From Methanosphaera stadtmanae (GTDB lineage Archaea; Methanobacteriota; Methanobacteria; Methanobacteriales; Methanobacteriaceae), in contig SUTQ01000004.1 in assembly GCA_015062805.1 (NCBI GenBank), positions 59,539-123,538 of the forward strand: a stretch of DNA of 64,000 nt, given 5' to 3'. Made by a program: the position numbers and the translations under genes. A model generated the notes under the pieces. The model was not told the DNA's origin, searched no databases, and worked only from the letters and a program-made list of their open reading frames with translations. Below are positions 10,023 through 14,375 of this stretch, one piece after another. Each line of letters opens with the position of its first letter. Position 1 is the stretch's first letter.

Positions 10023-10970
10023 TTATTCTTCATAATATACTTTAGCATATTCTTCAGGCATATTGTATAGACCTATGGCAGCTAATGCCCCTATGAGTCC
10101 ACCTTCACCTGTAACGTATTCTACGCGAATATTATTTTCTTCTGCAACACATTTTGCTTCATCAAGATATTTCATTGATTTTTTGGCTTCCAAAGCGTAT
10201 TGCTGAACTGCTTCCGGTATTTTTAGTTTTTCATATACAACGAATGCAGTATTTTCTGAAAGAGTTTTTTCTTTGAGTTTAGATTTAACACTTGCAATCA
10301 AGTCTTCTTTTTCTTCTTCTTTAACTGCAAATACTAATATAATTGATACACAGTTTTTGGTCTTGTTTGGATTGTTGGGATATAACTGACAGGTTATATG
10401 TTCAAGATAGTGGTATCCCTTTTCTTCCTGTATTTCATTTGCAATGTTGTTTGCCAATGTCCAGGTTGCTCCTTCTGTTGGAATGTCCGTGTCATCCAGT
10501 CCTATTATAACTTTCTTAAGTTTTGGAGTAATAATCGCTGCACGTCCAACTTTGGATCCACCTCCTTTGTCAAGCAATTCGATTCTTATAACTCCATCTG
10601 CTTTTCCTCGACAAAATGCAGCTCCTACTCCCGCACCTGCCAGTCCGGCATGTACAATTCTGATTTCATCATCTTCAATGCTTGCTTCCTGAATTCCTGC
10701 AGCCTGATAACTAGGTTTAAGGTTTAGTTCTGTTTTTCCTTTATTAACGTAGTATGTGTGTTTGTTTCCGTCACGTTTTGCATCGGTTATTAAAGGACTG
10801 GTTTGTTTGTATTGGGTTATCATCCAATCTGAACCGATTGGGCATGGATGGTATTCTATGAGTTCTATTTGTTCCTCGTCATTATCAGTTACTGTTAGAA
10901 TTTCGTGATATGGTGTTATCCATGGGTCTGTGTATTTTTCTTTTAATTCTTCCGGTGTTAAAATTTCCAT
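10023..10970 (-). CDS. mmp11: Methanogenesis marker protein 11
   Basis: 315-residue soluble protein recognised as the methanogenesis marker 11 family, found almost only in methanogens and of unknown function. Visible features are a central Gly-rich stretch G-L-A-G-A-G-V-G-A-A-F-C-R-G and the motif G-L-D-D-T-D-I-P-T-E-G-A-T (about residues 178-190), which resembles the ATP/metal-binding D-D-T-D motif of the tRNA-Ile2 agmatinyltransferase TiaS. That hints at a nucleotide-dependent reaction, but this is inference. ATG with AGGAA upstream; it is last in the probable leuCDB-ribH-mmp11 transcript, 60 bases after ribH. Confidence 0.85.
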   Translation of the reverse strand: MEILTPEELKEKYTDPWITPYHEILTVTDNDEEQIELIEYHPCPIGSDWMITQYKQTSPLITDAKRDGNKHTYYVNKGKTELNLKPSYQAAGIQEASIEDDEIRIVHAGLAGAGVGAAFCRGKADGVIRIELLDKGGGSKVGRAAIITPKLKKVIIGLDDTDIPTEGATWTLANNIANEIQEEKGYHYLEHITCQLYPNNPNKTKNCVSIILVFAVKEEEKEDLIASVKSKLKEKTLSENTAFVVYEKLKIPEAVQQYALEAKKSMKYLDEAKCVAEENNIRVEYVTGEGGLIGALAAIGLYNMPEEYAKVYYEE

Positions 10971-11030
10971 ATTGTTTTTCCTATAATTTTTTTTATTTTG
11001 TAAAAGAATATAGAAAGGGGGTTATATTAG

Positions 11031-11435
11031 TTATGCTAATCTTTTAACGAGTTTTACAGCAGCTTCTACTGCACGTTTTCCGTATTCAACTCGTTGATGT
11101 GCTTCAAGTCTGGTCATACCGGGACCGGATATTCCTAAAGTGACAGGTTTGTTGTATTCTAGGGATAAGTCTGTGATTTTTCTTGCTGCGTGTTGTACAA
11201 CAATTTCATCATGTTCTGTGTCACCTTCAATTACGGCGCCTAAAGTGATTACTGCATCAACATTTCCGTCGTCTAATAATTTTTTAATTGCTATTGGCAT
11301 ATCGTATACACCAGGTACTGCAATAATTTCAGTGATTTCTGCATCTAAAAATTTTGCATGTTCTTTTGCTAATTCTAACATCATACTAGTAATATCAAAA
11401 TTAAATTCTGCTACTACTGCTCCTATTTTTATCAT
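11031..11435 (-). CDS. ribH: 6,7-dimethyl-8-ribityllumazine synthase
   Basis: 134-residue enzyme condensing 5-amino-6-ribitylaminouracil with 3,4-dihydroxy-2-butanone 4-phosphate, the penultimate step of riboflavin synthesis. Family marks are V-A-E-F-N at the N terminus, [22 protein letters not shown] (with the catalytic His in T-E-H-D) and G-P-G-M-T. It is short, as usual in archaea. ATG with AGGAG 9 bases upstream. Lies 36 bases downstream of the 28-residue membrane peptide. Confidence 0.95.
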
Positions 11436-11471
11436 AATATCTATTCTCCTAATTTTGTAATGTTTAGGCAG

Positions 11472-11558
11472 TTATACTAAGTATAATACAAATGCTGATA
11501 CTGAACTTACTACCATAATGAATATAATAAAGATTGCTGCTGCTTTTGCTGCGTCCAT
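11472..11558 (-). CDS. 28-residue single-helix membrane peptide
   Basis: A short frame of 28 codons plus stop: an N-terminal M-D-A-A-K-A-A-A followed by a hydrophobic stretch I-F-I-I-F-I-M-V-V through F-V-L-Y-L-V, consistent with one transmembrane helix. It is supported by a good ribosome binding site (GGAG at 11570-11567, 8 bases before the ATG) and by position in an otherwise tightly packed run of genes, 63 bases after leuB and 36 before ribH. I do not recognise a family. It could be a small regulatory membrane protein or a leader peptide of ribH-mmp11. Confidence 0.6.
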   Translation of the reverse strand: MDAAKAAAIFIIFIMVVSSVSAFVLYLV

Positions 11559-11621
11559 TTTAATTTCTCCGTATGTATTATATTATTGTTATTTTATTGT
11601 TTTACTTATATAACTAATTTA

Positions 11622-12596
11622 TTATATTTTGCTTGCAATATATTCTGCCATTTCCTGTGTTGAAGCTGTTCCTCCAAGGTCAGGGGTAACAACTTTTCCT
11701 TCTTGAATCACGTCTACAATTATGTTTTCTATTTTTCTTGCAGAATCGGATTCTCCAAGGTAGTCTAACATCATACATGCTGATAATATTGTAGCTACTG
11801 GGTTTGCGATTCCTTGTCCTGCGATATCTGGTGCGGAACCATGTACAGGTTCGAATAATCCGCTTTCATCACCTATGTTTGCTGATGGTATCATTCCAAG
11901 ACCACCGACTAAGCCTGCTCCTTCATCAGATAGGATATCTCCGTAAAGGTTTGAGGTTACAATTACTTCAAAGTCCAATGGGTTTGTAATAAGATACATT
12001 GCTGTAGCATCAACATAAAAATCGTTTGATTCAATTTCAGGATATTTTTCTGCTACTTCATAGAAACATTTTTTAAATAAACCGTCAGATATTTTTAAAA
12101 CGTTTGCCTTATGAACTGCAGTAACTTTTTTACGACCTGTGTCTTTTGCATATTGGAATGCATATTCTGATATTTTATCGGATGCTGCTTTGGTGATTTT
12201 TTTCCTTGCGATAGCACCTTCAGGAGTTTCCTCTTCGTCCCCTATATATAAATCTTCAGTGTTTTCACGTACAATCATGAAGTCAATGTTTCCATATTTT
12301 TCTGGTTGTAATGATTTTACAGGTCTTAAGTTTACGAATGTGTTTAGTTCGTGTCTTAGTCTTACAATAACATCTGCTGCGGTTTCACCTGCTGCTCCAA
12401 ACAATACTGCATCTGATTCTTTTGCAAGTTTTATGGTTTCTTCAGGTAATGGTACACCAGTTTCTTCTTTACATTTGTCTCCGGCTATTGCATGAGTATA
12501 ATTAAATTCAACATCTAACTTATCTAAGACTGTTGTTGTTGCTTTAACTACTTCTTCTCCAATTCCATCTCCAGGGATTACTGCTATATTATACAT
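11622..12596 (-). CDS. leuB: 3-isopropylmalate (or homoisocitrate) dehydrogenase
   Basis: 324-residue NAD(P)-dependent beta-decarboxylating dehydrogenase. Visible marks: I-P-G-D-G-I-G-E-E-V near the N terminus, substrate loop L-R-H-E-L-N-T-F-V-N-L-R-P-V, R-E-N-T-E-D-L-Y, the metal-binding N-L-Y-G-D-I-L-S-D-E-G and E-P-V-H-G-S-A-P-D-I-A-G-Q. Methanogens carry two paralogues, one for leucine and one (AksF) for 2-oxosuberate in coenzyme B synthesis. Sequence inspection alone does not separate them with certainty; clustering with leuC and leuD favours leucine. Starts at ATG with GAGG upstream, 9 bases after leuD. Confidence 0.88.
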   Translation of the reverse strand: MYNIAVIPGDGIGEEVVKATTTVLDKLDVEFNYTHAIAGDKCKEETGVPLPEETIKLAKESDAVLFGAAGETAADVIVRLRHELNTFVNLRPVKSLQPEKYGNIDFMIVRENTEDLYIGDEEETPEGAIARKKITKAASDKISEYAFQYAKDTGRKKVTAVHKANVLKISDGLFKKCFYEVAEKYPEIESNDFYVDATAMYLITNPLDFEVIVTSNLYGDILSDEGAGLVGGLGMIPSANIGDESGLFEPVHGSAPDIAGQGIANPVATILSACMMLDYLGESDSARKIENIIVDVIQEGKVVTPDLGGTASTQEMAEYIASKI

Positions 12597-12605
12597 ATTT
12601 TGCCT

Positions 12606-13103
12606 CTAAAATCTTGTTTTGTTTAAGTATTCGATTAATCCACCATTTTCTACGATTTCAAACATGAATTCTGGTAATTTTGTGAAGTCATAATCTTTGT
12701 CTTGAGTTGTGTTGGTAAGGGTTCCTTCTTCAAGATCTATTTTTAATATGTCTTCTTCTTCAATTTCATCTGGTCCGTTAGGTGCTTCAACCAATGGTAA
12801 TCCGATGTTTGTTGCGTTACGGTAAAATATTCTTGCAAATGATTTTGCTACTACTGCTTTTATTCCTGCTGCTTTAAGAGCAATTGGTGCGTGTTCACGG
12901 CTTGATCCACATCCGAAGTTGGAACCAGCTACTATTACGTCTCCTTCTTGGATTTTATCTTTGTAGTGTAAATCGTATCCTTCCATTACGTGTTTACCTA
13001 AATCTTCTGGTTTACTTAATGTTAAGTATCTTCCTGGAAGTATACTGTCTGTGTCTATGTCGTCTCCTAATTTTAGAGCTCTTCCTTCGATTATTTTTTC
13101 CAT
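12606..13103 (-). CDS. leuD: 3-isopropylmalate dehydratase small subunit (or homoaconitase small subunit)
   Basis: 165-residue swivelling subunit that pairs with the adjacent large subunit to isomerise 2- to 3-isopropylmalate. Diagnostic segments are G-D-D-I-D-T-D-S-I-L-P-G-R-Y near the N terminus and G-S-N-F-G-C-G-S-S-R-E-H-A-P in the middle, followed by S-F-A-R-I-F-Y-R-N. ATG with GGGAGG 6 bases upstream. Fifteen bases separate it from leuC and nine from leuB, so the three are one transcript. Specificity for isopropylmalate versus homoaconitate is not proven. Confidence 0.92.
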   Translation of the reverse strand: MEKIIEGRALKLGDDIDTDSILPGRYLTLSKPEDLGKHVMEGYDLHYKDKIQEGDVIVAGSNFGCGSSREHAPIALKAAGIKAVVAKSFARIFYRNATNIGLPLVEAPNGPDEIEEEDILKIDLEEGTLTNTTQDKDYDFTKLPEFMFEIVENGGLIEYLNKTRF

Positions 13104-13118
13104 TTTTTTACCTCCCTT

Positions 13119-14375
13119 TTATTTTTTTTCAGGTGCTGTTATGTGTCCTGTTAATGCACTTTCGGCTGCAACTATAGGTGAGCTTAAGTATACTTTTCCT
13201 TCTGGACTTCCTTGTCTTCCTTTGAAGTTACGGTTGGATGTTGAGAGACTTACTTCACCGTCACCAATTAATCCTATGTGTCCTCCGAGACATGGTCCAC
13301 AGCATGGGTTACATACAAGTGCTCCGGCTTCTACAAAGATATCCATTAAACCTTCTTTTAATGCTTGTTGGTAAATGGTTCTTGAAGCAGGGATAACTAG
13401 GGTTCTTACTCCATCCTTAATTTTGTTACCTTTAAGTACACGTGCTGCTTGTTCTAAGTCTTTAAGTCTACCGTTTGTACATGAACCTATGAATACTTGG
13501 TCTATTTCAACGTCTTCTACTTCACTGGCTGGTTTTACATTGTCCACATAATTTGGACATGCTACTTGTGGTTCAAGATTACTGACATCTATGTCTATTG
13601 TGTTTAAACTAGGTGCATCCAAGTCAGTTGTGAATTTGGTGTATGCTTTGTCTGTTCTGTTTTTGAGGTATTCGTCAGTAATTTTATCTGGTTCTACGAT
13701 ACCAGTTTTTCCACCCATTTCTATTGCCATGTTACTTAATACCATACGGTCGGACATTTCCATTTCCTGAATGGTTTCACCAGCGTATTCGCAGGATTTG
13801 TATGTTGAACCATCTTGTCCTACTTGTCCGATGATGTTTAAGATTACGTCTTTACTGGTTACGTTTTCCTGTAATTTACCGGTAATGTTGAATCTGTTGG
13901 TTTCAGGTACTTTGAACCATAATTGACCTGTTGCAAATACCATTGCCATATCTGTTGAACCTATACCTGTTGCAAATGCGCCTAATGCACCGTTTGTACA
14001 TGTGTGGGAGTCACTTCCTACGATTACAGTTCCGGGTAATGCATGACCTTTTTCAGGTACAACTTGATGACATACTCCTTCGTAAACATCATAAAAATTA
14101 GTTATTCCTTGTTCTTTAACAAATTCTCTTAACATTTGATGATTTTTAGCAGCATCTAATGTGTCTGCTGGTACTTGGTGGTCAAATGGGATAACTATTT
14201 TTTCCGGATCCCATACTTTATCGGTATTAATTTGTTCTAATGCTTGGAGTGTTAATGGACCAGTTAAATCGTGTACCATAGCTATGTCTATGTCTGCCAT
14301 TACTATTTCTCCAGCTTCTACTTTATCTTTTCCTGAAGCTTTTGCTAATATTTTTTCAGCTATTGTCATTGACAT
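13119..14375 (-). CDS. leuC: 3-isopropylmalate dehydratase large subunit (or homoaconitase large subunit)
   Basis: 418-residue aconitase-family subunit holding the [4Fe-4S] cluster. It shows [33 protein letters not shown] and [10 protein letters not shown], which supply the three cluster cysteines. The length matches archaeal LeuC/HacA. The start ATG at 14375 has AGGAGG about 10 bases upstream; a second ATG two codons later is possible. First gene of the minus-strand run leuC-leuD-leuB-peptide-ribH-mmp11. Confidence 0.92.

Follow-up and report, generated by a model that had tools for sequence, protein, structure and literature searches.

A candidate single-helix microprotein encoded upstream of ribH across Methanobacteria

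We found that selection acts at the protein level on a 28-codon open reading frame that precedes ribH in the window, the whole 64,000-nucleotide stretch of Methanosphaera stadtmanae DNA analysed here. In its genomic features the frame looks in every respect like a genuine small-protein gene, from which we infer that it is translated. In our best reading, for which we judge the case evenly balanced, its product would be a single-copy microprotein inserted in the membrane with its N-terminus inside and its C-terminus outside, and would serve as an accessory or assembly subunit of a shared membrane complex.

The reading frame and its coding constraint

The frame, scored as a 28-aa single-transmembrane microprotein gene from the ORF itself, profile searches and pN/pS, occupies positions 11472-11558 of the minus strand, stop included. 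It runs from an ATG to a TAA and encodes MDAAKAAAIFIIFIMVVSSVSAFVLYLV. The first-pass annotation had placed a 28-residue ORF between leuB and ribH, and it is present at exactly these positions; to our knowledge, an ORF of this length is too short for normal gene finders. The ribosome site claimed there is borne out as well, since a Shine-Dalgarno-like GGAG (11567-11570, minus strand, read from the sequence) stands 8 nt 5' of the ATG and a similar motif precedes the peptide in 116 of 119 loci, taken one per genome, of which 118 start with ATG and one with TTG. The leuB-like gene lies 63 nt before the ORF and ribH 36 nt after it, and a search of the whole genome (2.1 Mb in 50 contigs, E <= 10) showed the peptide to be single copy.

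Substitution patterns among relatives revealed the reading frame clearly. Over 52 independent close pairs, in-frame pS was 0.263 and pN 0.054, a pN/pS of 0.21, whereas reading this DNA in the two shifted frames gave 1.32 (50 pairs) and 2.61 (51 pairs). For the in-frame counts a binomial test, with transition bias uncorrected, returned p ~1e-49. Thus, the codon-level constraint that the first-pass annotation had left as a check to run is present. These values, like the start codons and the charge counts given below, were derived on corrected starts. A first set of starts, which missed those of 10 loci, had given 0.25 over 51 pairs. On that first set also rest the all-pairs ratios, which are near-saturated and weaker than the close-pair test (0.35 in genus g1 and 0.51 in g4), and an 18-locus genus alignment, in which the mean majority-base frequency per 10-nt block climbed at the start codon from 0.55 to 0.81 and, at the 3' end, fell from 0.92 to 0.73 in the stop block and to 0.54 beyond the stop. 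An antisense frame is likewise open in g1 (ratio 0.59).

By the starts chosen, the 106 unique relatives measure 25-43 residues. The 43-residue form occurs in three genomes (G010, G011 and G016; loci L014, L016 and L017) that have TTA at the usual ATG position. Instead, an in-frame ATG lies 15 codons upstream and has a Shine-Dalgarno-like motif of its own; a longer N-terminus is therefore tolerated.

Conservation and operon context in Methanobacteria

A same-genus search detected the peptide in 18 of 20 genomes, self included, at E 1.1e-10 to 7.5e-6, far more than chance would give. As for the two genomes without a match, in G004 leuB ends at a contig end and ribH begins 68 nt from the start of another contig, and in G005 ribH is truncated by a contig edge. 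At the family level, the first profile, A1, matched 129 of 138 genomes at E <= 0.1, the weakest matches being unreliable. With a 23-row profile, A2, 140 of 150 order genomes and 19 of 19 genera had a match at E <= 0.01, a tally that includes a long-frame match in G076; matches within long frames, such as those of 498 and 469 aa in G076, were discarded as chance, and that genome does not enter the adjacency count. ribH was located in 143 of the 150 order genomes (seven assemblies lack it), and in 139 of the 143 the peptide stands upstream of it on the same strand, at a distance between profile matches with a median of 39 nt, a 95th percentile of 159 and a maximum of 276. Since G021 carries the peptide 781 nt upstream of ribH, and since ribH in G004, G005 and G068 lies at a contig end and is uninformative, all of the 140 assessable order genomes carry the peptide (140/140). 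The sole genome of another order among the 151 searched, G150, has it too, 8 nt before the ribH ORF and with a 4-nt overlap with the desulfurase gene in front of it. The frame is thus conserved in relatives, the other check that the first-pass annotation had named, in the 139 genomes and in G150.

A named collection of 80 ribH loci, many of them from the same genomes as the order-genome search, gave a matching picture within the class: 38 of 39 Methanobacteria loci have the peptide within 700 nt, and the thirty-ninth, L114, which is the same DNA as the G021 locus, has it further upstream. In this collection, the ribH genes closest to that of the window carry the label Methanosphaera. The peptide was absent from all 41 ribH loci outside Methanobacteria, two of which have less than 300 nt of upstream sequence. 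We take the peptide to be ancestral to the sampled Methanobacteria. Two further observations concern individual assemblies. The peptide and ribH occur at identical contig coordinates in the genomes of two different species (G121:C71 and G117:C177), and G121 bears a second copy on C10, which suggests cross-contamination. A second match in G003 (L021) was rejected because it is the C-terminal helix of a longer frame, by eye zinc-ribbon-like.

Within the operon, ribH is the constant neighbour. In the window, the 6,7-dimethyl-8-ribityllumazine synthase gene (ribH, 11031-11435, minus strand; TIGR00114 above cut-off) is followed by the gene for methanogenesis marker protein 11 (10023-10970, minus strand; TIGR03280, 446.4 bits against a cut-off of 255.8). 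On the other side of the peptide, and likewise on the minus strand, stand a leuB-like isopropylmalate/homoisocitrate dehydrogenase gene (11622-12596; Iso_dh, with AksF2_Meth the best NCBIfam model, below its cut-off), a leuD-like gene for a dehydratase small subunit (12606-13103; TIGR02087 above cut-off) and a leuC/hacA-like gene for the large subunit (13119-14375; TIGR02086 and HacA_Meth above their cut-offs). Because the large subunit passes HacA_Meth (586.5 against 550) and AksF2_Meth is the best model for the dehydrogenase, though below its cut-off, these 'leu' genes (11622-14375) may have a role in coenzyme B synthesis. The genome of the window holds a second dehydrogenase paralogue on contig C28; for M. 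thermautotrophicus, an excerpt of PMC3087415 gives gene 1388 or 184 as the leuB homologue.

The leuB-ribH slot of the first-pass annotation is supported, with the refinement that ribH is its invariant side; apart from g1 and many g4 loci, other genes come in on the leuB side, most often a cysteine desulfurase. In the 18 g1 genomes having both, leuB adjoins the peptide within 188 nt, and the g1 loci seen have no desulfurase in between. Genus g4 shows a leuB-like 3' end in the available flank of 43 of 62 loci. In families f2 and f3, in G150 and in many f1 genera, leuB and the peptide are separated by the gene for a SufS-like cysteine desulfurase (Aminotran_5; TIGR01979 below cut-off), with ribH and then marker 11 after the peptide. 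The suggestion that Methanothermobacter shares the slot was also supported, in that the peptide has the corresponding place in other genera and families, among them f3, taken as Methanothermobacter, where the order is leuB, desulfurase, peptide, ribH. Altogether, the desulfurase is present in 29 of 42 loci tested (L070, L077, L179-L189 and L251 are examples), and the 13 loci without it include the four g4 loci tested, both g6, both g10, and L080, L194, L196 and L198, which are short with little upstream sequence. In some other loci it is glycosyltransferases or unknown ORFs that separate leuB from the peptide. The ancestral gene order was apparently leuCDB - cysteine desulfurase - peptide - ribH - marker 11. 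Because the desulfurase intervenes widely whereas the peptide keeps its place beside ribH throughout, the leuB-ribH spacing seen in the window is probably derived. In L088, two short adjacent frames (11703-12307) match the desulfurase within a long stretch lacking long ORFs, and look like a decaying desulfurase gene.

TATA-like matches to TT[TA][TA]ATA[TA] precede the peptide in 9 of 18 Methanosphaera-like loci, seven of the nine being TTATATAA at positions -55 to -87; among g4 loci, 3 of 18 have one. The DNA is very AT-rich, and we do not claim a promoter of the peptide's own. A sigma-70 scan, uninformative for archaea, found 12 sites against 15.0 expected.

Predicted structure and a probable second family in Methanococci

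Hydropathy and structure prediction agree on one membrane helix. The best 19-residue Kyte-Doolittle window has an average of 2.90 and a minimum of 2.45, and AlphaFold2, given a 40-residue relative aligned with 10 others, predicted a single long helix over residues 11-36 (mean pLDDT 86.4, pTM 0.45). The single hydrophobic helix of the first-pass annotation thus stands, while its 'Ala-rich start' does not apply generally, being confined to some Methanosphaera-like species; in many relatives the N-terminus contains Lys, Arg or Gln. The flank before the helix is more positively charged than that behind it in 87 of the 106 unique proteins, equal in 19 and lower in none, and an N-in, C-out topology is therefore predicted. 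M15 and S18 occur in 81 of 81 unique Methanobacteria cores and in 23 of 23 alignable Methanococci cores, a count that is partly circular since the cores were anchored on the M..S pair itself; one Methanococci sequence, L309, lacks the M. A test for a single conserved helix face, made on the first set of starts, gave no significant periodicity (p = 0.09 for Methanobacteria, p = 0.93 for Methanococci).

The Methanococci sequences came from searches beyond the class. A broader profile, A4, gave weak matches in 9 of 20 outgroup genomes at E <= 0.1 (best 2.8e-4); these included the N-terminal anchors of longer Hydrothermarchaea frames and, from a Methanocaldococcus genome, an ORF of 32 residues. 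Two of the Hydrothermarchaea frames (L272 and L273, of 219 and 130 aa) start with an A-x6-M-x2-S membrane anchor and carry a DGIPD-type repeat. Against 36 genomes of the phylum containing Methanocaldococcus, the Methanobacteria profile matched weakly (6 of 36 at E <= 0.05); five of the seven match rows are small ORFs that all sit where a CYTH gene, identified as cyaB by TIGR00318, ends. A profile built from these five ORFs, A5, then found 32 of the 36 genomes at E <= 0.01. The CYTH gene is next upstream in all 30 Methanococci-type loci examined (L275 1483-1581, L287-L316); its end falls anywhere from 222 nt upstream to 44 nt downstream of where the open frame begins, and often the two overlap. 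Read from the first in-frame ATG, 23 of the 30 proteins have 27-46 residues, one has 87, and six need another start codon. The Methanococci family has a pN/pS of 0.20 over 13 pairs.

The two families resemble each other beyond their size. Aligned by hhalign, A5 and A4 gave a probability of 96%. Run against 1.08 Mb of loci (31,603 frames), which were selected for ribH content and many of which duplicate one another, A5 had ribH-linked peptides for all of its top 27 matches (E 6e-6 to 0.19; two of them, L117 and L177, assigned by sequence, without an automatic mark), and the first frame of another kind came at rank 28 with E 0.38. The cyaB-linked microprotein shares the register, Lys/Gln5, A8, M15, S18 and the one helix. 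It differs in having Pro at position 21 in 23 of 23 unique cores, where Methanobacteria have Ala, Ser or Gly, and in following cyaB/CYTH in its operon rather than preceding ribH. Although hydrophobic helices of 25 residues can converge, homology of the cyaB-linked ORF to the ribH peptide is probable on these similarities.

Database searches returned no family for either. The window peptide matched no Pfam or NCBIfam family; three relatives matched no NCBIfam family, six had only Pfam and NCBIfam matches below cut-off, and the Methanococci ORF has no model in either collection. Three PDB chain searches gave no match (best E 2.8, none, and 0.21), which speaks against the peptide being a chain already deposited with a solved methanogen complex. 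In the titles and abstract starts of the open PMC papers covered, the peptide is not named, and the excerpts of PMC3087415, PMC9258230 and PMC11456600 make no mention of it.

Possible roles of the peptide

How might such a peptide act? Its single predicted transmembrane helix follows a short N-terminus that usually carries positive charge; the peptide would insert with this N-terminus in the cytoplasm and act as a constitutive accessory or assembly subunit. The near-invariant A8, M15 and S18 of the helix, together with small residues at about 18-22, might make the packing contact with a larger integral membrane protein or complex that these methanogens share, an interface that is a guess because the helix-face test was not significant. 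The slot before ribH would then be an old place in an operon that secures steady expression, and would not point to a role in riboflavin synthesis. Occurrence in unlinked contexts (ribH in one group, cyaB in the other) and the changing upstream gene argue for a role independent of both ribH and cyaB, and a one-helix, single-copy, universal protein most resembles the accessory subunits of membrane complexes. More tentatively, and somewhat short of even confidence, we propose that class I methanogens share an overlooked, universal microprotein as a subunit of a core membrane complex. It would form a single ancient family, encoded upstream of ribH in Methanobacteria and downstream of cyaB in Methanococci, with a possible relationship to the A-x6-M-x2-S N-terminal membrane anchors of Hydrothermarchaea.

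Among known proteins, CydX, KdpF and CcoM are single-span small subunits, several of them encoded with the genes of their complex. Like them, the peptide family has 25-45 residues (CcoM has 36 aa in the excerpt of PMC10433244), one helix and conservation within its lineage; unlike several of them, its gene sits in an unrelated operon, and it reaches no Pfam or NCBIfam family. Methanogens themselves offer MtrI and MtrR of Methanosarcina mazei, microproteins that bind the Mtr complex according to excerpts of PMC13370731 and PMC12774963. As unannotated methanogen microproteins acting at the membrane these would be comparable; MtrR, however, is described in the excerpt of PMC13370731 as a hydrophilic protein of 49 aa without a transmembrane domain, whereas the ribH peptide has one predicted helix. 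On this precedent the peptide could be a condition-specific regulator of an energy complex, which we consider fairly unlikely: MtrR lacks a transmembrane segment, and a universal single-copy gene in a biosynthetic operon looks constitutive.

A partnership with RibH itself, in which the peptide would anchor lumazine synthase at the membrane or regulate it or the flavin supply, would account for a place upstream of ribH kept in 139 of 143 genomes despite the changing preceding gene. We nevertheless hold it to be distinctly unlikely, as the probable Methanococci relatives follow cyaB/CYTH away from ribH, none of the 41 ribH loci outside Methanobacteria has the peptide (with the two short flanks noted above), and an operon position can outlast any functional link. 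Should the ORF instead be a cis-acting leader peptide or uORF, its translation would control ribH and its product would be irrelevant. A short ORF directly before an enzyme gene, 8 nt away in G150 and 12-13 nt in f3, has the look of one; however, the amino-acid constraint along the helix, a spacing to ribH that ranges from a few nt to 781 nt, probable relatives downstream of a different gene in another phylum, and the lack of any Rfam family in 10900-12700 at E <= 0.1 make this very improbable. Finally, size and hydrophobicity would also suit a spurious ORF or the hydrophobic toxin of a type I toxin-antitoxin pair, an idea rendered hardly credible by the fixed slot in practically all genomes, the strong purifying selection, and the absence from the locus of an Rfam antitoxin or other RNA family.

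Strong selection has kept the peptide in practically the whole of an archaeal class, and probably also in another group, so it is probably important for the cell. The class includes the gut methanogens Methanobrevibacter and Methanosphaera and the biotechnological workhorse Methanothermobacter. Conserved class-wide and yet without a Pfam or NCBIfam family model, the family lends itself to ribosome profiling, tagging and deletion as a well-defined target, and it may account for unassigned helices in maps of membrane complexes.
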